From positions 1 to 51,907 of the forward strand of contig MWCD01000025.1 of the NCBI GenBank assembly GCA_002069885.1: a DNA stretch of 51,907 nucleotides. Direction: 5' to 3'. The notes below the pieces were generated by a model. It worked only from the letters and a program-made list of their open reading frames with translations, ran no database searches and had not been told where the DNA came from. This document shows positions 28,230 to 41,106 of this stretch, one piece after another (the first letter of the stretch is position 1; every line of letters starts with the position of its first letter). Position numbers and translations under genes: made by a program. Source of the stretch: a bacterium ADurb.Bin236. GTDB taxonomy: Bacteria; UBP15; UBA6099.

Positions 28230-31200
28230 TCAGGGCAGATTCAAAAGACAGCCGTCGTACGCTCTCAGCAGATAGGCGCGGAGCGGTAGAAGTCTGGCGG
28301 CCGGTTTGTACTCAGAGCCGTCGAACTCCAATATCGATTTGGCGACGATTCCCCTCGCCGCCGCGTCCGCAAGCGAAATGGTTTCCCCGCCGAAAGTTAT
28401 CGTCACAGCCGAAGGATCCGCCGACGCCGCGCCGGACACTCCGATTATGTTCCAGCCCCTGTCCAGCATCACAGTTCTAGCAGAGGAAGAGGCTTTAGCT
28501 ACGAACCGCTTGGCGGCCGGGGTCCTGACTTCCACCCATACAGCCCTGCCCCCGCGAGCGTTCATCGCCTGCAGCGAACTTCTGAAATCGCGGTCGCTTA
28601 TGTCGAACATCGTGGCCCCGGAGTCTATAAGCTCCGACAGTCCCCGTTTAAATTCTTCCGGAAGCTCTTCGGGCAGATATATCAGGTTCCAGCCTTTGAC
28701 GAGAGACAAGTCAATCTCGGATTCAGCTGCCGTGATAACGGCATCAACCTCGTCTGCGATTTCCTGAGCCGTCTCGCGCGCCGCGTCCGCAGCGTGGCTT
28801 GCGGCTTCCGCCACAGCCGTGGCGTCCGCCTTCGACGCCACTATAGTTTCGCTTACGTTACCTACGGAGTCGTGCAGTTTGACATAAACCTTCCCGGCGC
28901 CGCCGGCAGGCAAAGTTCGGGTTTTTCTGCTGGAGAACGACTCCCACGCCGCCCCAGCGAAATCCGGCGAGTCGGACACCATCATGCCCGTCACTCCAAG
29001 GCCGGGGATGCCATAAGAGACATCCGGGCGGGCGATATTGAAGCGCGAAAAAACGTCCGAGTTGTCAGCAGCCGCTATAGCCAGCTCGACATCGCCGTCT
29101 GAGCCGGACACGGGCAGAAGAACCGCCGAGCCTGAAGGAGCGGTTCTGTCTATCACGATGTAGTCCGCGTACGCGGGCGACTCGACCCCGCCCTGCGCCG
29201 CTCTGAATTTCACGTAAACCGCCTTCAATCCGTCCCCGCCGTCTATCGTCCAGTTGGCTGAATTCGAGAACGGCTGCCACGCCGCGCCCCTGAACGACGG
29301 GTCTCCGGATATCATCATTTCTCCCGCCGGAAGCAACGGCGCGTTATGGTTGTAGTAGTTGAGGCTCAGCAACACATAGGGCGACGATGACGCCATCCCG
29401 CTTTTTATTATTCTGACGGGAAGCTCGGAGTCCCCTCTCCCGGTGTCAACCGAAAGAGCGCTCTTAACAACCTGATACACTCCGTCGTCCAGAAGTATGG
29501 TCGCATGCGTAAGACCCGTCCTGACGACATTGATCGCGCCATCGTAGAACGCGTTTTCAGCCGGGACAACCACGCCGTCGTCCGTGGAGAAAATCGCCGT
29601 ATAGTCCACCATTCCGGGAACGCTGTCGCCGGAGTTGAGACTGGCGAGGAAATCGCTGGACACCGTCATCTGTCTTGCCGCTTCGCCGGGCCCCACCGCG
29701 GCGATAACCGTGCCCCTGTGCGGGGTGGATATCGTCACAAGGTCGTCGACCGAGGCGACTCCGCCAAGCTCCTTTATATAATATCGGGCGACCAGACCGC
29801 CCTCGCTGTGTGCCACAATGTCAACCTTTTCCGCGCCGGTTTCGCGGAGAACGCCTTGCACGAAATCCCTCAGTTTTGCGGCGCTCGCGATAACATCCCC
29901 CATCCCCGCCGCGTCCAGCGCTATCACATGCGTCGAATACCCTTCTTTTTTCAGCCGCTCCGTGTAGTAGAGCCAGTTGATTTTCGAGGTCAGTTCGGAC
30001 GCCACCGCGCCATAGCCGTGAACGAAAACCACCGGGGCGCGGCCCTTCTCTGCGGCGACGAATCCGTTGACCGGGCTGAACATCTGTGTCGACACCGAGC
30101 GGGTCTGAGACACGTTTCCGGCGGCGTCCCGGAAGCGGACATACGCCGTCTTCTCTCCCGTTCCAGCGCTCACTGTCACAGTCTTCGAGCCTGCTAGTGG
30201 CTCCCACGACGCCCCGGCGAATCCAGAAACCGTCGAGACCTGCATATCTCTTGCTCCTATGCCCAGTATCCCATAGGCCTCGAGCAGATTGGTCACTTTG
30301 AAATAACCGTATTTTTCAGCGTTGTCGGCCGCGGAAATCTTCAGCGTCATCGTCGATTTTTCAGCGTCCGTCGCGGATATCGAGACCGTTCCTGTAGGAG
30401 TCTCGCGGTCGATTATTATATAGTCAGCGTAGGAGGGAGACTCGACGCCGTCAGCCCCTCTGAATTTCACATGGACGCCCAGAAGCCCCCCGTCCTTGCC
30501 TGAAATATCCAGATTCACCGAATTCGAGAACGGCTGCCACGACACCGCTCCGTGGAACATCCCGTTCGTGGCCACCATCATCTCCGTGACAGGAGCCTGC
30601 GGGGAAAAATGGTTGCAGGGTTTCAATCTGACTTCCACTGTGTTCTTGTTTGTGGACATCCCCGGCTCGACTATCTCGACCGGGCGCTGTCCTTTCGAGA
30701 ACAAATATTTGTACGATATGGCGGACCGCAGAACTTTGTACGGTTCCGGCGCGAAAAGAATCCCGCCGTGGCCGAGCAGCATGAAATTCACGTTCACCGC
30801 GCCGTCGAAGAACCCGTTCGTGCCGGGCAGCACGATCTCGTCGGCATGGCTGAACATCGCGGTGTACTCGACTCCGCCGAACAGGGTGTCGCCGGAGTTA
30901 AGCTCCTGAATGAACGGGCTGGCAACCTCCATCTGGCTAGTTCCCTCGCCGAGCAGTCCCATGCCCGCATGGGCTACGGTTGTGCCCCTATGCGGGGTGC
31001 TGATCGTCACCAGATCGTCGACGAACTGCGCGCCGCCGAGCTCTCTGATGTAATATCTCGACACCAGACCGCCCTCGCTGTGAACCACCAAATCGACCTT
31101 CGGGGAGCCGGTCCTCGCCACTGTCGCGGCAACGAAATCGCGAAGCTCGCGCGCGCTCTTTTTTATGTCCTGCATCGCCGCGTTGCCCAGCGTTATCTCC

Positions 31201-32696
31201 GTAACGTCGAACCCCTCGCTCTTGAGCCTTCCGCCTATGTAAGACCAGTAAACAGCCACGCTCAGGTCGCCGAGTATCGAGCCTGAATGACCGTGCACCA
31301 ACACGACCGGCTGCCTCGCCGCTTCGGACACCATGCCGATGTCCGGAGCATTGACGTCAATGACCCTGATGTTGCCCGTGGCCACCGCGCTGACGTTGCC
31401 GGCGGCGTCTCTCGTTTTAACATAAACCGTCTTCATGCCGCTGCCGGCGCCGAGGTTGACGACCGCGCTCTTGGCGAAAGGCTGCCATGACGCGCCCGCG
31501 AACGACGGGTCCGCGCTGACCATCATCTCCTTCACGCCGAACTCTTCCATCCCGTAAGCGAACAGCGCGTTCCACACCTTGAACTTCTTGTAGTCGTCCG
31601 TATTGTCCGAAGCGTCTATGCCTATCGTCGCCGAAGATTCAAGCGTCACATCGGGAAGAGCGGTTATCGACGCCTTCGGAGCTTCCCTGTCTAGGAAGAT
31701 ATAGTCAACGTAAGTCGGAGATTCCTTGGGGAAAAGAAAATTGCCGCTGTGCCTGAACTGGACGTAAACGGCTTTCATGCCATCGCGGGAATCATCCAGC
31801 GTCCACTGCTTGGTGTCGGCGAATGAATGCCAGTCCGCGCCGTGAAGGAACTGCTTGTTGCTTATCCTCATCTGACGCATGTCTTCGTCGTCGTGGAAAT
31901 GGTTAAACTTCTTCAGCCTCAGGGTAACGTTCGGGTTGTTGGTCACCATTGCCGACTTCACAATCTGAATCGGGATGGCCCTGCGGCCCTCCCCGGTGTT
32001 GTTCTGTAACGCGCCGCGCGTCATCTTATAGACATCTTCATTGAACATTATTCCACCGTGCCCTAGCAGGTTAACGTTCATGTTTACCGCGCCCGCGAAA
32101 AAACCGTTTTCGTTCGGAACTACCATCTCGTCGTGATTGCTGAAAATCGCCGTGTAGTCGATGTCGCCGGTCAGAGTGGGCGGCGTGTTCAGCTCTCGAA
32201 GAAAGGAACTGTAAATCTCCATTTGGCGAGCTGCCTCGCCGGGGCCGATATGCGCCACGCTTGTGCCCCTGTGCGGAGTGGCTATCGTCACCAGATCGTC
32301 AACCTTGCCCGCGCCTCCGAGATGCTTGATGTAGTACCGGGAGATCAGACCGCCCTCGCTGTGCGTGACCAGATCCACCTTCGACTTGCCCGTCCGAGCC
32401 AACGTCGCGTCGATGTAGTCGCGAAGAACCGCCGCGCTTCGCGGGATGTCCTCCATGGCCCCATCCGGCAGGGCTATCTTGTACACGTCGAATCCGTCGA
32501 GTTTTAGCCGCGTTGATATGAACGACCAGTATAGCTCGACCGAAGTCTGGCCGGCTATCGAGCCGAAATAGCCGTGAACCAGCACAACCGGCTGCTTGGA
32601 GCTTTCAGAAGACAACATGCCCGCCGCCTCAGCGCGCGCGCACACTGTTGCCAGAGCTATGACTATCGCGATCCCGGTTGCCGCTCTTCTTTTCAT
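28230..32696 (-). CDS. Secreted protein with three tandem lipase-like (PGAP1/triacylglycerol lipase) domains
   Basis: 1488 residues with a signal peptide (about 1-25). Three alpha/beta-hydrolase units begin at about residues 35, 462 and 886, each starting with PVV(L/F)VHG and carrying a nucleophile elbow HSEGG: S113 in the first, with equivalent VHSEGG and AHSEGG in the others. Each has a likely acid in IFSxxDE(M/I/V)V.P and a His in LGHGG(I) or LTHATI, then TPHRGT. Each hydrolase is followed by Ig-like modules with SFAGASW(Q/E)PF and KTVYVKTRDAAGNVS-type phrases. The C-terminus (about 1331-1488) is a separate beta-rich domain starting KGWNLIYLPEE. All three sites look intact. Substrate is probably a lipid or ester outside the cell; not determined. 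Confidence 0.88.
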   Translation of the reverse strand: MKRRAATGIAIVIALATVCARAEAAGMLSSESSKQPVVLVHGYFGSIAGQTSVELYWSFISTRLKLDGFDVYKIALPDGAMEDIPRSAAVLRDYIDATLARTGKSKVDLVTHSEGGLISRYYIKHLGGAGKVDDLVTIATPHRGTSVAHIGPGEAARQMEIYSSFLRELNTPPTLTGDIDYTAIFSNHDEMVVPNENGFFAGAVNMNVNLLGHGGIMFNEDVYKMTRGALQNNTGEGRRAIPIQIVKSAMVTNNPNVTLRLKKFNHFHDDEDMRQMRISNKQFLHGADWHSFADTKQWTLDDSRDGMKAVYVQFRHSGNFLFPKESPTYVDYIFLDREAPKASITALPDVTLESSATIGIDASDNTDDYKKFKVWNALFAYGMEEFGVKEMMVSADPSFAGASWQPFAKSAVVNLGAGSGMKTVYVKTRDAAGNVSAVATGNIRVIDVNAPDIGMVSEAARQPVVLVHGHSGSILGDLSVAVYWSYIGGRLKSEGFDVTEITLGNAAMQDIKKSARELRDFVAATVARTGSPKVDLVVHSEGGLVSRYYIRELGGAQFVDDLVTISTPHRGTTVAHAGMGLLGEGTSQMEVASPFIQELNSGDTLFGGVEYTAMFSHADEIVLPGTNGFFDGAVNVNFMLLGHGGILFAPEPYKVLRSAISYKYLFSKGQRPVEIVEPGMSTNKNTVEVRLKPCNHFSPQAPVTEMMVATNGMFHGAVSWQPFSNSVNLDISGKDGGLLGVHVKFRGADGVESPSYADYIIIDRETPTGTVSISATDAEKSTMTLKISAADNAEKYGYFKVTNLLEAYGILGIGARDMQVSTVSGFAGASWEPLAGSKTVTVSAGTGEKTAYVRFRDAAGNVSQTRSVSTQMFSPVNGFVAAEKGRAPVVFVHGYGAVASELTSKINWLYYTERLKKEGYSTHVIALDAAGMGDVIASAAKLRDFVQGVLRETGAEKVDIVAHSEGGLVARYYIKELGGVASVDDLVTISTPHRGTVIAAVGPGEAARQMTVSSDFLASLNSGDSVPGMVDYTAIFSTDDGVVVPAENAFYDGAINVVRTGLTHATILLDDGVYQVVKSALSVDTGRGDSELPVRIIKSGMASSSPYVLLSLNYYNHNAPLLPAGEMMISGDPSFRGAAWQPFSNSANWTIDGGDGLKAVYVKFRAAQGGVESPAYADYIVIDRTAPSGSAVLLPVSGSDGDVELAIAAADNSDVFSRFNIARPDVSYGIPGLGVTGMMVSDSPDFAGAAWESFSSRKTRTLPAGGAGKVYVKLHDSVGNVSETIVASKADATAVAEAASHAADAARETAQEIADEVDAVITAAESEIDLSLVKGWNLIYLPEELPEEFKRGLSELIDSGATMFDISDRDFRSSLQAMNARGGRAVWVEVRTPAAKRFVAKASSSARTVMLDRGWNIIGVSGAASADPSAVTITFGGETISLADAAARGIVAKSILEFDGSEYKPAARLLPLRAYLLRAYDGCLLNLP

Positions 32697-33879: not shown

Positions 33880-34812
33880 TCAGTCTGTCGTCGATTTGAT
33901 TAAATTCAAAAGAGAAAGATTCTGAATTACTTTTGCTATATCGACTCTGGAAGTCTCCGGGACAAAGACCACATCGCCGTCCTTTAGAACGATATTTTCC
34001 TTAAGGTCGCCAAATTTCATGAGCGATTTCACGTCGGAATTTATAATTACCGGTTCTCCGTCCACAACGCGAATTACATACGTGTTCCCTATCGCCGCTC
34101 TGCCGACAGTTCCTCCGGCTCTTCCTAGAAGGTCAAGAATCTGCGTGCCTTCCGGAACGAACACCGTTCCGGGACTGGTCACTTTTCCAAGAACAATCAC
34201 CCTCATCTTCATTGCCGGCTGTGTGTACGGCACTATTATCATGTCGCCCGCCTGCATCAGGATGTTGGAGCTAAGGTCTTTCCCTTCCATCATCAGCCTA
34301 ATGTCAATGTATCGGACAGGCTCGGTTCCTCTGAAAAGAGCCAGCTTCGACAAGTCCGCGTCCGGAAGAGGCCTCGACTTGATAAGCGCGTCCATCAATT
34401 TCATTCCGTCGAAAAATCTATGCGCGTACTGTTCCGTCACCGCGCCGAAAATCGAAACTGCAAATCCCGGACGCACTCCGTATGCCACGAACTCCATGTT
34501 CACGACAGGCGATTCGTAATACTTGCTCATGCGGCTAATCACAAGCTCTTCGGCTTTTTCAAGGGTCAGCCCATCCACCTTAAACCCTCCCAGATCAAGC
34601 CCATGCTCGAGTATCGGGAAGAAGAACCTTCCTGTTTCGTCGATAGTGTATTCCCCGCTCATAGCAGGCTCCGTCGGCACTCTCACCAGCAACCTGTCGC
34701 CCTGACCTATTTGCCTTGTATCAACTTCTGCCGCCATCCCGGCGACCGCCGACAAAATAAACATTGCCGCCAGAGCCGCTGAAATTTTCGCCACTCTCAT
34801 ATCATTCACCAT
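33880..34812 (-). CDS. Polysaccharide export protein (Wza-like, SLBB domain)
   Basis: 310 residues with a signal peptide (about 1-28). The start of the mature part, IGQGDRLLVRVPTEPAMSGEYTIDETGRFFFPI, is the Poly_export domain. A first SLBB-like segment contains VSIFGAVTEQ, and a second contains VIVLGKVTSPGTVFVPEGTQILDLLGRAGG, with LKDGDVVFVPE at the end. Such proteins form outer-membrane channels for capsule or exopolysaccharide. There is no lipobox Cys and no polymerase, glycosyltransferase or Wzc-like kinase nearby. The ATG at 34800 is an alternative start. It supports an outer membrane in this organism. Confidence 0.9.
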   Translation of the reverse strand: MVNDMRVAKISAALAAMFILSAVAGMAAEVDTRQIGQGDRLLVRVPTEPAMSGEYTIDETGRFFFPILEHGLDLGGFKVDGLTLEKAEELVISRMSKYYESPVVNMEFVAYGVRPGFAVSIFGAVTEQYAHRFFDGMKLMDALIKSRPLPDADLSKLALFRGTEPVRYIDIRLMMEGKDLSSNILMQAGDMIIVPYTQPAMKMRVIVLGKVTSPGTVFVPEGTQILDLLGRAGGTVGRAAIGNTYVIRVVDGEPVIINSDVKSLMKFGDLKENIVLKDGDVVFVPETSRVDIAKVIQNLSLLNLIKSTTD

Positions 34813-35089: not shown

Positions 35090-35368
35090 ATGGGCGAAGT
35101 TGTTTTTAAAAAAAGCGGTAGCCTGATTGAAAGAAGAATCGAAGGGGAAGCGATTCTGCTGGACATCAAGAGCGGAGTGTACTACGACCTGAAGAACGTA
35201 GGTGTTTTCATCTGGGAGATATTATCCGGAGGGGCATCAGCGCGACAAATCGCGGCCGCCGTGGCAGAAAACTTCGATGTGGACGCCGAAACTGCCCTTG
35301 CGGACACGCTCGAACTGCTTAATGACCTCGAAACTGAAGGCTTGATTGTCAGAAACGCGGAGGGCTGA
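35090..35368 (+). CDS. PqqD-like RiPP recognition element protein
   Basis: 92 residues, the size of stand-alone PqqD. The winged-helix recognition fold is indicated by ERRIEGEAILLDIKSGVYYDLKNVGVFIWEIL near the start and by NFDVDAETALADTLELLNDLETEGLIV at the end. In the family this domain binds the leader of a precursor peptide and presents it to the modifying enzyme. It begins the cassette and is followed three bases later by the radical SAM gene. The partner peptide is encoded at 36421-36549. Confidence 0.9.
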   Translation: MGEVVFKKSGSLIERRIEGEAILLDIKSGVYYDLKNVGVFIWEILSGGASARQIAAAVAENFDVDAETALADTLELLNDLETEGLIVRNAEG

Positions 35369-35371
35369 TTT

Positions 35372-36424
35372 TTGCTTCAACTGCCCAGACACGCGCTTCA
35401 CAAAAAACTGGTTGGCCGGGCGAATCCCATGCGGATTCAACTTGAGATCACCCGACGTTGCAACCTTGACTGCGTGCATTGCATTCAGGGCGGCTGCTCG
35501 TATGTCGCCGGAGAAATGACGGCGGCGGACTACGAGCGGCTTCTGCCCAGAATGAGCGCGGCAGGTGTATTCAGCGTCAGTCTCACCGGCGGTGAATTTC
35601 TCTGCCATCCTGAAATCATGGTTATTCTGGAGCTTCTTCTCCGCTCCGATTTTTGGCTCGCCCTGCAGACCAACGGAACGCTGCTGGATCAGGATACGGT
35701 TGATTTTCTGGCCCGTAGCAGAGAAAAAATCCGCGCTGTGGCCGTAAGCCTGTACGGAGCGACCGCCAAGGCCCACGAGTCAGTAACCCGCTCGCCCGGA
35801 AGTTTCGAGAAAACCATCCGCGCCATAGACATGCTCTCCGAAGCAGGTTTCAGAGTCGAAGTTATTTCTCTTCTTATGACGATGAATCAGGAGGAAGCGC
35901 CGCAGATTCAGGAACTGTGCCGGGAACGCGGCCTATTCCACCAGTTCAATTCGATAATCGCCCCCAGAAAAGACGGGGAGACGTCCTCCCTTGAGTGCAG
36001 ACTCTCTGAAGAGCTTCTCAAAAAGCTTCCCCGACCATGGGAGACTTTCACGGAGAACTTCATCCCGCACGAGCCGGACGACTTCTCTCCGGACAAGACA
36101 CTAGACGCATGGTGCACGATGGCCCGCACGTCAGGATATATAGATTCCAAAGGCAACCTGCTCCCATGCTCAATCATGGACCTACCTGCCGGGAATGTGA
36201 AAGACCGCCCGTTTGACGAACTGTGGCATGATTCCGCCGTGTTCAACGCGCTGAGAAAACTTAAGATCGGGGAATTCGAGTGTTCCCGCTGCGGCCACTT
36301 TCCAACTTGCCGCCCGTGCCCCGGCCTTGCCTTCCTCGAACACGGCAATATGTTTGAAGCTCCGAAAGAAATATGTAGAATAATAGAGTTGTTCCTAGGC
36401 GACAAAGAGGTGAAAAAAGCATGA
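35372..36424 (+). CDS. Radical SAM/SPASM peptide maturase
   Basis: 350 residues, starting at TTG 35372, which has GGAGG eight bases upstream inside the end of the pqqD-like gene. The radical SAM cluster motif is C30-x3-C34-x2-C37. The SAM-binding LTGGEF is at 71-76. The SPASM domain provides seven cysteines (C248, C266, C304, C307, C313, C316, C335) in the classical spacing for auxiliary 4Fe-4S clusters. SPASM enzymes modify peptide side chains, for example by thioether or C-C crosslinks. Its stop overlaps the start of the peptide gene as ATGA. The expected substrate is the peptide with its single Cys. No second maturase is present. Confidence 0.92.
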   Translation: MLQLPRHALHKKLVGRANPMRIQLEITRRCNLDCVHCIQGGCSYVAGEMTAADYERLLPRMSAAGVFSVSLTGGEFLCHPEIMVILELLLRSDFWLALQTNGTLLDQDTVDFLARSREKIRAVAVSLYGATAKAHESVTRSPGSFEKTIRAIDMLSEAGFRVEVISLLMTMNQEEAPQIQELCRERGLFHQFNSIIAPRKDGETSSLECRLSEELLKKLPRPWETFTENFIPHEPDDFSPDKTLDAWCTMARTSGYIDSKGNLLPCSIMDLPAGNVKDRPFDELWHDSAVFNALRKLKIGEFECSRCGHFPTCRPCPGLAFLEHGNMFEAPKEICRIIELFLGDKEVKKA

Positions 36425-36549
36425 ATAAGAATGAGAAAGAAAACAAAAAAACCTATTCCAAACCCGTCCTGACGAAGTACGGAACGGTGAAGGACGTGTA
36501 CACCGGGCCGTCGTGCAAGGCGATAATGGAAGCCGAAGCGGACAAGTAA
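36421..36549 (+). CDS. Putative RiPP precursor peptide, 42 residues
   Basis: A short gene whose ATG overlaps the radical SAM stop as ATGA. The N-terminal ten residues are Lys/Asn/Glu-rich. Residues 12-28 carry Y12-x-x-P15-x-L17-x-x-x-G21-x-V23 and T28, a layout like the leader that PqqD-like recognition proteins bind in lasso-peptide systems. The C-terminal 14 residues are GPSCKAIMEAEADK: G29 would be the first core residue in a lasso reading, with E37 at core position 9. There is one Cys (C32), so a Cys-based crosslink to a neighbouring residue is possible. No lasso cyclase or B2-type protease is nearby. The reading frame is certain; precursor status is inferred from position, size and leader. 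Confidence 0.75.
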   Translation: MNKNEKENKKTYSKPVLTKYGTVKDVYTGPSCKAIMEAEADK

Positions 36550-36610
36550 AATAGAATCCGCGCCTACTGCCTCCTTTTCGTCTCTTTGTCGGGAACGTCT
36601 CGTTTTTGTG

Positions 36611-36640
36611 TTGTGCCGCCCCTGTTTTCTGCCTTATAAT
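36611..36640 (+). promoter_or_regulatory. Candidate promoter between peptide and HPr-kinase-like gene
   Basis: TTGTGC (36611-36616) and a perfect TATAAT (36635-36640) are 18 bp apart, which would start an mRNA about 97 nt before the next ATG. This would let the downstream four genes be transcribed independently of the cassette. Confidence 0.5.
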
Positions 36641-36743
36641 TAAATCAGATTTGTCAAAATCTTCGGATTCGGCATTCGCGCGCAAGTCCGACTAATCCGG
36701 AGCGAAAGGAATTGACAATCCGGCCGCTGCCGGCCATCCAGCC

Positions 36744-37697
36744 ATGAACAAACTCAAGGACGCGTCGCCGGCGTCCAGAAAATTTTATGAGATAAGCCTC
36801 TTCGGCAGACGGTTTGCTATAGACACCGACCGCCCCGACGTCATAGAAACTTTTTTTGTTTCTTTCTACGGCGACGCGCACAACGCGATGGCCGCCCCGC
36901 CGAAAAACAGCGAAAAAAATTTGTTCCGCCTGAGCGTCAATCACAGCCACCCCGGAAAAATCAAACAGAATTCAATAGCCGAGCCTATTCCGATTCCGGA
37001 ACCCGGAATGCAGTTGTTTCTCGAATGGGAGCCTGAGAGTGGCGCGGCTGTATTCAATGTCCCTCCCTCGCCGGAAAACCGCGTCACTCAAATCGTCTGC
37101 GCGGCGGCTTCCAATTTTATTTACCTGACGCTGATGAGCGCCGGCGTTTTCTTCTATCATGCGTCCTCCGCCGCGCGGGCCGGCGGAGCCGTCATGTTCT
37201 GCGGCCCCAACGGCAGCGGAAAATCGACCGTGATGCGCGCCGCGCTCGCGCGCGGAGCGAGATATCTTTCAGACGACGCCTGCGCAACCGTGAAAAACGA
37301 TTGCGGCGCAGTCTGTGTCTATCCCGGTCGCGAAGCGGTCGAAATCGCCGATCTTTCGACGGATGAGATCAGTCTTCTTAAGGAAAAAGGATTCAGGCCA
37401 AGTCCGCACGAAAAGTTCCTCTCGCCGCCTGCAGCCGGGCTGCTATCGCCTATCAGGGCGTTATATTTTCTTTCAGGAATGGAAGGAATCCCCACAGTCA
37501 GGCCATTATCAGCGAGGGCTGCGGCGGTAAGACTGATGAGGCTGCACAGAATGCCGATGACGGAGCGCGCATGCGAGGAACTCATGCGTATGAGCGGAGA
37601 CATCGCCGAGCAGTCCCGCGCCTTTGAATTTGAACTGGGAGCGGACGCTGAATCCGGTTGCCGCGCGGTTATGGAACATGTCGAGTCGATTATTTAA
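36744..37697 (+). CDS. HPr kinase/phosphorylase-like P-loop protein
   Basis: 317 residues. The P-loop GPNGSGKST begins at residue 154, followed by YLSDDACA (D177, D178), the pairing seen in HprK-type kinases and in the HPr-kinase homologues that accompany some lasso-peptide and PqqD clusters. An upstream HAS segment (H139) also fits the fold. The N-terminal 110 residues are a distinct domain not recognised. No HPr (ptsH) gene or PTS gene is near. No clear ribosome site precedes the ATG. In paeninodin-type clusters a related protein phosphorylates the peptide; that this one acts on the 42-residue peptide is inference from proximity. Confidence 0.78.
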   Translation: MNKLKDASPASRKFYEISLFGRRFAIDTDRPDVIETFFVSFYGDAHNAMAAPPKNSEKNLFRLSVNHSHPGKIKQNSIAEPIPIPEPGMQLFLEWEPESGAAVFNVPPSPENRVTQIVCAAASNFIYLTLMSAGVFFYHASSAARAGGAVMFCGPNGSGKSTVMRAALARGARYLSDDACATVKNDCGAVCVYPGREAVEIADLSTDEISLLKEKGFRPSPHEKFLSPPAAGLLSPIRALYFLSGMEGIPTVRPLSARAAAVRLMRLHRMPMTERACEELMRMSGDIAEQSRAFEFELGADAESGCRAVMEHVESII

Positions 37698-38808
37698 AAT
37701 TGCGGCGATGTGCCTGCTGATACTGGCGGCACGCGCTCCCGCGTTTGCCTACTCCGGCGATTTCGACGCTCTGGTGTTCGATTTCGATGTCGAGAGCGAT
37801 TTTCCGGAAAAATGGGCGGCTCCCGCTCTCACCGACTACGCTATTCGGGCGATTTCCCTAAATTCAAAAGAACGCGCGATGCCCCGCGACGCCCTCAAAA
37901 GGCTCGCTTCCAGATGGGCGGCGGCGGGAAGACGCGAAATGGCGTTCGAGACTCGCGACGCGCTGCGGCAACACACCGGAGCCTCTTTCATCGTCGACGG
38001 TTCCCTGTCGCGCGACCGCTCCGGATTCCAGTTCACCGGTTCGGTCATAAATCCCGACACCGGGCTTGTGCGCGACATATCGTTCTCCCTGAAAGAATTC
38101 GACATTGAAGCGGCGCGCGGAGCGTTGCGCGGGACGCTTGAAACCGCTCTCGGCAGAAAACTGCCGAACGACAAATCGGCGCTTCTCGGAACGACAAACT
38201 CCTCGGCATCCGCCGCGCATTGGAAAGGCGTCTGGCAATACGAACGGAACGAGACCGAAAAAGCTATAGCGTTCTTCCAGCAGTCGATGTCAGCCGATCC
38301 TGCTTTCATAGAGCCTGCCCTCTCCCTTGCAAGAGCGCAGATGGACAAAGCGCTATTTTCGGACGCGGCGGCGATCCTCAGAAAAGCTATCTCGTCCGCC
38401 CCGAAAGAGCCGCGCGCCCATTTTCTCCTCGGCCTCTCTCTTCACTTCCAGAGACAAAAACAGCTCTCTCTCGAATCTCTCGGAACCGCCGCTAACCTCG
38501 AACCCCGCAATCCGGAATACCTATTCCAACTCGGCGTCGTCCACAAGGAATCCTTCAGATATCCTGAAGCGATTTCAAATTTTGAGAAAGCGCTCGCCAT
38601 AGACAAATCGTACGACGCTTGGTTTCCTCTGGCTGAGATTTACGCGACAACAAAACAAGAGCAAAAAGCGATACACAGCCTCGAACAGGCCGCTGTCTGG
38701 AGCCGGGCGGGGTTGCTCAACAGGCTGAAGAACGACGCGGATTTCAACTGGCTTCGCACGAACGCGCGTTTCCAGCTTCTAATAAAACAACTGGAGAGGC
38801 AACCATGA
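37678..38808 (+). CDS. Secreted TPR protein
   Basis: 376 residues from the ATG at 37678, inside the end of the HPr-kinase-like gene (20-bp overlap), chosen because a signal peptide (about 1-24) begins there. The N-terminal part (about 25-170), with DALVFDFDVESDFPEKWAAPALTDY and DGSLSRDRSGFQFTGSVIN, is like the FlgO/TolB-N type of envelope protein. Four or more TPRs follow (about 180-340). It is likely periplasmic. The stop overlaps the next start by four bases, so translation is coupled. Function unknown. Confidence 0.82.
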   Translation: MSSRLFKIAAMCLLILAARAPAFAYSGDFDALVFDFDVESDFPEKWAAPALTDYAIRAISLNSKERAMPRDALKRLASRWAAAGRREMAFETRDALRQHTGASFIVDGSLSRDRSGFQFTGSVINPDTGLVRDISFSLKEFDIEAARGALRGTLETALGRKLPNDKSALLGTTNSSASAAHWKGVWQYERNETEKAIAFFQQSMSADPAFIEPALSLARAQMDKALFSDAAAILRKAISSAPKEPRAHFLLGLSLHFQRQKQLSLESLGTAANLEPRNPEYLFQLGVVHKESFRYPEAISNFEKALAIDKSYDAWFPLAEIYATTKQEQKAIHSLEQAAVWSRAGLLNRLKNDADFNWLRTNARFQLLIKQLERQP

Positions 38809-39389
38809 GGCGGGCCGTCAGGGCGATAACGGCATTGGTGGCAACGGCCTTCATAGCCGCCGGGTGCGCGGGCGCGCGCAGAGCCTCAGCCCCGGCTTCT
38901 CCGCTTCCTTCCGCCGACTCGATACAGAGCGAAATCATACACACGATTTCCAAACGCCTGACCGCCGGACTGCCTGACTCAGGCAGACTAAAAGCGGCGC
39001 GCGAAAGGGGCGTCCTTCGTGTCGCCGTCGTCTTTTCGCCCGACAATGCGCTTTGCCATTTCGATCCTGATATCGGCGCGCCGCGTGGATTCATCCCCGA
39101 GCTTGCGGCCGAGATTGCCCTCATGCTGGAAATCAAACCCAACGTTGAATTGCTCAATCAAGGCGAACGCCCCGGCCCGGAAATCGACATTGTTTTCCTC
39201 CCTGAGGGCGATAGCGGTTGCGAGTCAAATAATCTTATTCCTTATTATTACACTCCTGAACTGGGGTGGAAACACATCTGCGTGATGGATGACGGCGAAT
39301 CGCTCAAGGAGGCGGTCGCGAGAATCCTGTCCCACATGAACTCGACGGGCATATTCGCGCAACTGCACATGGCGCATGTCGAAAACTAA
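38805..39389 (+). CDS. Short solute-binding lipoprotein
   Basis: 194 residues. Signal sequence with lipobox FIAAGC, so Cys is lipidated and the protein is tethered to a membrane. The mature part carries segments of a family 3 solute-binding fold: ARERGVLRVAVVFSPDNAL and GAPRGFIPELAAEIALML, then LEGDxxGC-like regions. It is shorter than usual (about 230-270) so one lobe may be incomplete. It overlaps the histidine kinase gene by 14 bp. A role as ligand sensor for the kinase is inferred from context. Confidence 0.75.
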   Translation: MRRAVRAITALVATAFIAAGCAGARRASAPASPLPSADSIQSEIIHTISKRLTAGLPDSGRLKAARERGVLRVAVVFSPDNALCHFDPDIGAPRGFIPELAAEIALMLEIKPNVELLNQGERPGPEIDIVFLPEGDSGCESNNLIPYYYTPELGWKHICVMDDGESLKEAVARILSHMNSTGIFAQLHMAHVEN

Positions 39390-41106
39390 ACGGACAACGA
39401 TGTTCGGCAAGCTGATGAGGTCGAACCTGCTGACGCTTGCGTTCGCGGCGCTGATATTCGGCGCGGCATACTCGGTGTTCGCCGCGCGATACCTTAAATC
39501 CGCCGCCGAAGAGGACATGACTCGCGCAGCTCTGCTGGCAAGCAGCGTCATATCCCGAAACCTCGAAGGAGCGGCGCTCACATCCCGCCTGCTTGCGCAG
39601 AATTACGAGATACGCTCAGGACTTCCAGCCGGAGACAAGGATCGCATATCGGCGGAAATAGAAAAGGAACTGAAAAATATTGAAGCGGATTTCATAACCG
39701 TCGCCGGAGCGGACGGAGTTTCGACGATTAGAGCATCCCGCCGTCCTCTCCCGCCCGAATTTGAAACATCCGCGCTTTCCGAGCCTCTTTTCCTAAGCCC
39801 CGCGTTCCATCGAGCCTCGACATCCGGAGAGCCGGCCGTCGGCATAGAGCCTGTATTCCCCGGCGGTCTCGGCATTGTCGCCATCGCTCCGACAAAAGGC
39901 GAAGACGGCGAAATCATAGGATTCGTTCGCATCGGATTCCATCTGGACGACAGGTTTGTGGAAACGGTGAGAGAGATGACGCAAGCCGATCTGGCGATAG
40001 AGCGTCGGGGCGAGATAATCGCGTCCACAGCGCGCGCTTCAGGACAGGAGCCGCTTCTTGCTTCGGCTCTATCGAAATCTTACCTCATTCACAGTTCGGA
40101 GATGCCGAGCGAGGGAACGGAACCGGCGCGCCTGCTCGCGCTGTACCCGAAAAACAGAATTGCTAGAGCGCTGAAGCAGGGATTAGCCGCGATTGCGGCC
40201 ATAGCAGCAGTCGCGCTGGCCGTCTCCGCGTTCGCGAGCGCCCGCCTCTCCCGCCGTATCGTGTCGCCTATCAGCGATTTGATTTACGGAGCGGAAAGGA
40301 TACAAGCGGGAGATTTCGGGCGTCGGCTCGACGCCTCCGGGCCTGACGAGCTTCGAGAACTTGCGACAGCTTTCAACAGGATGGCCGAGGCTTTGACCCA
40401 GCGCGACGCGGAGATAAAAATCAATCAGGACCAGCTTGTGGAATCCGGCAAACTGGCGGCGGTCGGAGAGCTTGCTGCCGGCGTCGCCCACGAAATCGGA
40501 AACCCGCTAGCCGCCATACTAGGCTATGTTCAATTGATTAATACGGCTCCGCCGGAAAAAATCAGCCACTATCTGGAACGCATCGCCCAAGAGGCAGGGT
40601 TCATCGATCAGACGATTAGAGACCTTCTGGAATTCTCAAGACCAGCAGCGGCGGAAGATCAGGTTTTCGCCGCAGACGACGCGGTGGACGAGGCCCTCCG
40701 CATGCTGAGTTTCCACAAGATGATGAAACACATCGAAGTGAAACGAACTAGGCCCCAGAAGTCCCCGCTGATCAAGGGCGGAAAGAAAGAGATAACTCAG
40801 GCGGTGATGAACATCGCGCTGAACGCGGCGCAAGCCATGAAAGGACACGGAACGCTTGATGTCACAACAGGCTCTGAAGGCGCGACTGCGTTCATAAAAA
40901 TCCGCGACACTGGCCCCGGCGTGAAACCCGAAAACATAAAAAGAATATTCGACCCCTTCTTCACGACCAGAGGCGACGGAGTTGGTCTGGGGCTTTCGAT
41001 AACATACAAAATAATCGAGCGGCACAACGGTTCGATTCAAGTCCTCTCGCCTCCCGGAAGCGGGGCGGAGTTCGCTATCCTTTTGCCACTCGCCGCTCAG
41101 GCGTAA
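39376..41106 (+). CDS. Membrane sensor histidine kinase with HAMP domain
   Basis: 576 residues. TM1 at about 14-38, a periplasmic sensor region (about 40-270) with double-Cache-like character, TM2 about 275-295, HAMP (about 295-345), then HisKA with H372 in VAHEIGNP and HATPase with N-box NIALNAAQAM, DTGPGV, FDPFFTT and GVGLGLSI. The AtoS/NtrB-type kinase core usually pairs with NtrC-type regulators, which matters because rpoN is in the window, but no response regulator is adjacent. The first residues overlap the lipoprotein gene. Confidence 0.93.
   Translation: MSKTKRTTMFGKLMRSNLLTLAFAALIFGAAYSVFAARYLKSAAEEDMTRAALLASSVISRNLEGAALTSRLLAQNYEIRSGLPAGDKDRISAEIEKELKNIEADFITVAGADGVSTIRASRRPLPPEFETSALSEPLFLSPAFHRASTSGEPAVGIEPVFPGGLGIVAIAPTKGEDGEIIGFVRIGFHLDDRFVETVREMTQADLAIERRGEIIASTARASGQEPLLASALSKSYLIHSSEMPSEGTEPARLLALYPKNRIARALKQGLAAIAAIAAVALAVSAFASARLSRRIVSPISDLIYGAERIQAGDFGRRLDASGPDELRELATAFNRMAEALTQRDAEIKINQDQLVESGKLAAVGELAAGVAHEIGNPLAAILGYVQLINTAPPEKISHYLERIAQEAGFIDQTIRDLLEFSRPAAAEDQVFAADDAVDEALRMLSFHKMMKHIEVKRTRPQKSPLIKGGKKEITQAVMNIALNAAQAMKGHGTLDVTTGSEGATAFIKIRDTGPGVKPENIKRIFDPFFTTRGDGVGLGLSITYKIIERHNGSIQVLSPPGSGAEFAILLPLAAQA

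Follow-up and report, generated by a model that had tools for sequence, protein, structure and literature searches.

Organization of the locus

The window (the whole stretch of DNA analysed, 51,907 nucleotides, belonging to a genome of 3.87 Mb that is 93% complete) carries a compact cassette encoding a PqqD-like protein, a radical SAM/SPASM protein and a 42-residue peptide (Table 1). A 3-base gap separates the first gene from the second, which overlaps the peptide gene at ATGA. This arrangement had already been described in a sequence-only reading of this DNA, and Pfam confirmed the PqqD, Radical_SAM and SPASM assignments. Judging by spacing alone, the cassette genes are probably transcribed together. 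The same interval is closed by a gene for an HPrK-like kinase, which the earlier reading had overlooked.

Genes for an exported TPR protein (its start was placed at the ATG ahead of a signal-like sequence), a 194-aa protein without a Pfam match and a sensor histidine kinase follow, each overlapping its predecessor. The TPR protein is also present in the order relative G005 and probably in G006, where the gene is cut by the contig end. A gene for a Wza-type polysaccharide export protein lies divergently upstream of the cassette in every lineage read. No leader peptidase or exporter is encoded within the operon. The terminator-like site downstream of the peptide gene (36590-36602) is weak and falls within the general excess of such sites. 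Taken together, the conserved polysaccharide export, exported TPR and sensor kinase neighbours may hint at a role of the product in the envelope or in signalling. Elsewhere in the window (28230-32696, minus strand) there is a gene for a 1488-aa protein with three lipase-like alpha/beta-hydrolase modules in a single chain (VVLVHG ... HSEGGLISRYY).

Table 1. Features of the cassette and its neighbourhood (positions within the window).
Feature	Position	Strand	Basis
Wza-type polysaccharide export protein (Poly_export, SLBB)	33880..34812	-	divergent, upstream of cassette
PqqD-like protein, predicted discrete RRE of lasso-B1 type, 92 aa	35090..35368	+	Pfam PqqD; PDB match TbiB1
Radical SAM/SPASM maturase, 350 aa, TTG start	35372..36424	+	Pfam; alignment of 7 orthologues; PDB match SkfB
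Precursor peptide gene, 42 aa	36421..36549	+	conservation in 7 genomes; synonymous substitutions
Leader motif Y12-S-K-P-V-L-T-K-Y-G21	36454..36483	+	sequence
Core GPSC, residues 29-32, invariant, with the only cysteine of the peptide	36505..36516	+	orthologue alignment
C-terminal Asp-Lys, invariant	36541..36546	+	orthologue alignment
HPrK-like kinase, 317 aa	36744..37697	+	HprK_rel_A match; positional orthologues; alignment
Exported TPR protein, overlapping the kinase gene	37678..38808	+	Pfam
194-aa protein, lipoprotein-like N-terminus	38805..39389	+	open reading frame
Sensor histidine kinase (dCache, HAMP, HisKA, HATPase)	39376..41106	+	domain matches

Conservation of the precursor peptide

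The peptide, MNKNEKENKKTYSKPVLTKYGTVKDVYTGPSCKAIMEAEADK, contains the pattern Y12-x2-P15-x-L17-x3-G21, and so the leader motif claimed earlier is indeed present. YxxPxLxxxG occurs twice in the six frames of the window, compared with a mean of 0.87 in block shuffles. The motif alone is thus not significant, being found at a near-chance frequency, which speaks for the view that this short frame is open by chance and that the real substrate is another protein. Conservation decides whether the peptide is real. The comparison set comprised 7 genomes of three families, i.e. the window genome, 3 relatives from its genus, 1 from its family and 2 from its order. In all seven genomes the peptide is encoded directly behind the radical SAM gene (E-values of 4e-10 to 5e-19). 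Between the window and the relative from another genus of the same family, codon positions 1, 2 and 3 show 2, 1 and 20 changes, respectively, and 18 codons differ synonymously against 3 non-synonymously. The peptide is under purifying selection and is a real gene. With its frame, place and sequence kept in seven genomes of three families and the codon changes mostly synonymous, a chance frame can be practically dismissed. The absence of the frame or of the leader motif from relatives, which the earlier reading had equated with chance, was not what we found: both are conserved across the 7 genomes, and the peptide gene constantly accompanies those for the PqqD-like and radical SAM proteins. That the peptide is the maturase substrate is a strong inference.

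Nineteen residues are invariant among the 7 orthologues, including P15, L17, Y20, G21, K24-Y27, G29-C32 and D41-K42, while Y12 is replaced by Phe in one lineage. A search of 386 genomes confined the full-length peptide to these 7; outside the order, the matches were partial and covered mostly the leader. Two relatives have an extra gene, encoding a B12-binding radical SAM protein, immediately after that for the peptide (L044:7243-8754 in G005:C175, and at the end of L043 in G004:C48); this insertion is absent from the window.

The PqqD-like protein, the maturase and the kinase

The PqqD-like protein scored 66 bits against Pfam PqqD (above the curated cut-off). When its family profile was compared with the PDB, the best match was TbiB1 (1.2e-16), followed by TfuB1 (5.6e-8), with PqqD itself reaching just 3e-4. 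By these matches, the protein is closest to the RREs of lasso systems, B1 type. The peptide scored 21.7 bits against lasso_cyano (cut-off 33) and 16.5 bits against lasso_leader_L3 (cut-off 19), both somewhat below the thresholds. Together with the RRE matches, these scores make recognition lasso-like on both sides, the binding protein and the leader motif. The sequence-only reading had proposed lasso-type recognition combined with the chemistry of another class. The proximity of the RRE to TbiB1 supports the proposal, but the YxxP motif itself cannot be counted as lasso-specific, since in a 2025 survey of RREs (PMC12710340) the W/Y/LxxP/L/I recognition groups span RREs of lasso peptides (FusE, McjB), PQQ (PqqD) and sactipeptides (StsC), and such recognition is not specific to a RiPP class.

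The maturase scored above the curated cut-offs for both Radical_SAM (85 bits) and SPASM (34 bits), and in the alignment of its 7 orthologues in the order the CX3CX2C motif and seven SPASM cysteines are invariant. SkfB was the best PDB match of its profile (1.2e-23), followed by cytosylglucuronate decarboxylase and by entries 5v1q/5v1s/5v1t, which we take to be the thioether enzyme CteB. The protein falls far under every curated NCBIfam subfamily cut-off, hence outside the characterised subfamilies, and its reaction is therefore not fixed by homology. Near-identical maturases are found in records such as UBP15_UBA6099. A phylogeny built from 52 radical SAM proteins grouped L163/L180 with the window family (support 96/85); their cassette has a peptide that starts with MTIKKKYIKPVLTKY and has two cysteines later. 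A third radical SAM/SPASM protein of the window genome (L048:1446-3321, G000:C22) is close to the maturase in the tree; it is paired with a metallo-beta-lactamase-fold protein, with no adjoining PqqD gene or peptide.

The kinase matched HprK_rel_A with 28.6 bits, below the cut-off of 200, and P-loop matches dominated the comparison of its profile with the PDB. Two other families have orthologues (28-29% identity) at the corresponding position. Walker A is kept, H139, K160 and D177 are invariant in 8 proteins, and D178 is present in the window protein. These residues fit the His-Lys-Asp-Asp motif of lasso tailoring kinases, which phosphorylate a C-terminal Ser (reviewed in PMC9266682); the window peptide ends with Asp-Lys, without such a Ser.

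The cassette as a possible lasso system

The leader, the RRE and the HPrK-like kinase would all suit a diverged lasso system with cyclase and protease genes at other sites in the genome and with the radical SAM enzyme serving for tailoring. A possible protease exists: in 6 of the 7 genomes a lasso-B2-like Transglut_core3 protein was identified, encoded beside unrelated genes and not near any PqqD gene. In the window genome it is a single-copy protein on a separate contig (L086, G000:C26), with another example being L090 (G005:C171). The G000 protein runs on into an apparent membrane domain.

The remaining evidence is against a lasso product. As stated in the earlier reading, no lasso cyclase or protease is present in the window, where neither an Asn-synthetase-like nor a Transglut_core3-like protein was detected. 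The only Asn_synthase match in the whole genome is weak and partial (24.8 bits), both PqqD genes of the genome adjoin radical SAM genes, and the cyclase is absent from every cassette read. Within the peptide, Gly29 is kept as the core Gly1 position, but the lasso Thr(-2) position is Tyr and there is no conserved Asp/Glu ring acceptor at core positions 7-9, position 9 being E, N, A or G across the order. By the tests run, the cassette does not appear to be a lasso system, and after the whole-genome searches one with a remote cyclase is very unlikely.

Proposed maturation of the peptide

We consider it reasonably probable that the locus is a RiPP cassette combining an RRE of lasso-B1 type and a YxxPxL leader with a SPASM enzyme acting on Cys32 (thioether), kinase tailoring and leader removal in trans. 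In this scheme, the discrete PqqD-like RRE would bind the leader of the 42-residue precursor, a step for which the evidence is strong, and would present the precursor to the radical SAM/SPASM enzyme. The latter would most likely act on the core around the invariant Cys32 to form a sactipeptide- or ranthipeptide-like thioether, with Asp41 as one candidate partner; here our confidence is moderate. The HPrK-like kinase would probably phosphorylate the peptide, Ser31 being the candidate site, and the leader would have to be removed in trans, for which the unlinked lasso-B2-like protein is one speculative candidate; the kinase site and the protease are weak assignments.

Of the features expected of a sactipeptide or ranthipeptide, a SPASM auxiliary-cluster domain and a core cysteine (the single, invariant Cys32) are present. 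A thioether is most likely judging from the maturase, which is nearest to SkfB with CteB near the top of the matches, from the invariance of the Fe-S cysteines and of Cys32, and from the cysteine that follows the motif in most of the motif ORFs surveyed beside other PqqD and radical SAM genes (see below). Against it, thioether peptides would be expected to have more than a single cysteine, and the maturase lies far under the subfamily cut-offs; the terminal Asp-Lys, in place of the Ser used by lasso kinases, counts against kinase tailoring, and the lack of a peptidase and an exporter in the operon counts against the scheme as a whole.

The same RiPP cassette could instead perform another SPASM chemistry, such as a C-C crosslink (e.g. 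Lys24/Tyr27), an epimerisation or a change of the C-terminal Asp-Lys. This we regard as less likely, though with an appreciable probability: K24, D25, V26, Y27, D41 and K42 are likewise invariant and the maturase subfamily is uncharacterised, but K24-Y27 sit where lasso-type leaders end and so may serve in recognition, the cores are rich in cysteine in relatives whose leaders are similar, and the closest PDB match, SkfB, is a thioether enzyme. Far less probable is a reaction of the spliceotide type, for which X-Tyr-Gly splice sites are known, with the radical SAM enzyme excising tyramine. The triplet K/R-Y-G at residues 19-21 is invariant in the order, but its YG belongs to the lasso-like leader, and at this place KYE is found in L163, which is the closest relative from beyond the order. 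Since the precursor has been firmly identified in an uncultured lineage, the thioether and the other chemistries become testable by co-expression of the three genes.

Related cassettes in the order and in other lineages

A paralogous cassette comprising a PqqD-like protein, a radical SAM protein (33% identical to the window maturase), an HPrK-like kinase and a peptide occurs in the same genome (L049:9153-10360, G000:C60) and elsewhere in the order, in loci L051, L052 and L053. Its peptide, KRPYSKPRIKSSSIKDTFLACGKCGSGPVEMFVCVVFPELS, has a CGKC core and a C-terminal Ser, and the cassette adjoins polysaccharide export genes. In L053:10142-12463 (G004:C112) an NTP_transf_5 nucleotidyltransferase and a Wza-type Poly_export/SLBB protein share one ORF; in G000:C60 the two are separate, overlapping ORFs.

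PqqD loci of other lineages were surveyed with the strict leader motif, classes being assigned by small home-made HMMs. A matching short ORF was found at 27 of 73 loci with PqqD and radical SAM genes (first set, 16 of 39; second set, 11 of 34). Three scrambled versions of the strict motif yielded 9, 1 and 0 ORFs in the first set, where the motif itself yielded 16, and 3 combined in the second set; a few motif ORFs (L144, L161 and L293) look spurious, so the counts still include some background. The stricter motif and scrambled controls were adopted, partly post hoc, after a loose peptide criterion had failed to separate the second set from its opposite-strand control (16 versus 15 loci). A cysteine follows the motif in 26 of the 29 motif ORFs and the terminal residue is exactly serine in 14 of 29; both patterns were first noted in the first set and then held in the second (11/13 and 7/13, respectively). 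The two motif ORFs that lie beside Asn-synthetase genes have no cysteine.

Cassettes with PqqD, radical SAM and a YxxP peptide thus recur across lineages, often with an HPrK-like kinase. With W/Y/LxxP recognition also common to several RiPP classes, the earlier suggestion of a new radical-SAM peptide class is not supported; the cassette is better described as a combination of radical SAM/SPASM chemistry with recognition and tailoring of a lasso-like kind, one of many across bacteria. Within the part of the literature covered, no paper was found that combines radical SAM with YxxPxL, HprK, PqqD or StsC. In two further loci, L183:7935-12549 (G231:C7) and L155:3551-6317 (G048:C14), PqqD-like, B2-like, radical SAM and HPrK-like genes are clustered with no Asn-synthetase-like match; at L183 there are two cysteine-free peptides, each with a YTKPTLTKHKPLRDITA leader.

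Comparison with known systems

The lasso systems of paeninodin (PadeK) and pseudomycoidin (PsmK/PsmN) have the RRE family, the YxxPxL leader and an HPrK-like kinase in common with the window, and the NTP_transf_5 nucleotidyltransferase near the second cassette of the order is a further likeness. Unlike them, the window has a radical SAM/SPASM enzyme, with no Asn-synthetase-like cyclase or linked B2 protease, and its peptide lacks both a C-terminal Ser and a conserved ring acceptor. With the sactipeptide streptosactin (StsA/StsB/StsC) it shares a SPASM-type maturase and a discrete PqqD-like RRE with recognition of the W/Y/LxxP type (PMC12710340), but the maturase reaches only 82 bits of the 625-bit StsB cut-off, and the precursors seem unrelated beyond the leader type.

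SkfB and CteB are the closest solved radical SAM relatives of the maturase; in contrast to them, the window maturase scores 58.6 of 300 (the curated SkfB cut-off), the RRE is a separate protein and the core has one Cys. The NCBI cassettes of unknown product SynChlorMet, GeoRSP and HPr-rel-A also combine PqqD-like, HPrK-like and/or radical SAM/SPASM proteins, but the window proteins are all far below the cut-offs of the models (ScmD 32.6/100, ScmE 91/400, HprK_rel_A 28.6/200).

Seen across lineages, the pattern suggests that the chemistry which forms the ring is not tied to the modules for recognizing the leader and for kinase tailoring, which move independently of it. If this is true, a lasso product should not be deduced from an RRE and leader of lasso type, and this signature could be used to find precursor families with no Pfam or NCBIfam model above cut-off. 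As a tentative generalization, the lasso toolkit (B1-type RRE, YxxPxL leader, HPrK-like kinase for a C-terminal Ser and, in some cases, a nucleotidyltransferase or B2-like protease) might be a general chassis in which a radical SAM/SPASM enzyme has widely been substituted for the cyclase, yielding kinase-tailored, cysteine-crosslinked peptides. The window family would then be a single-Cys GPSC branch that lacks the C-terminal Ser and is linked to a sensor kinase and a locus for polysaccharide export.
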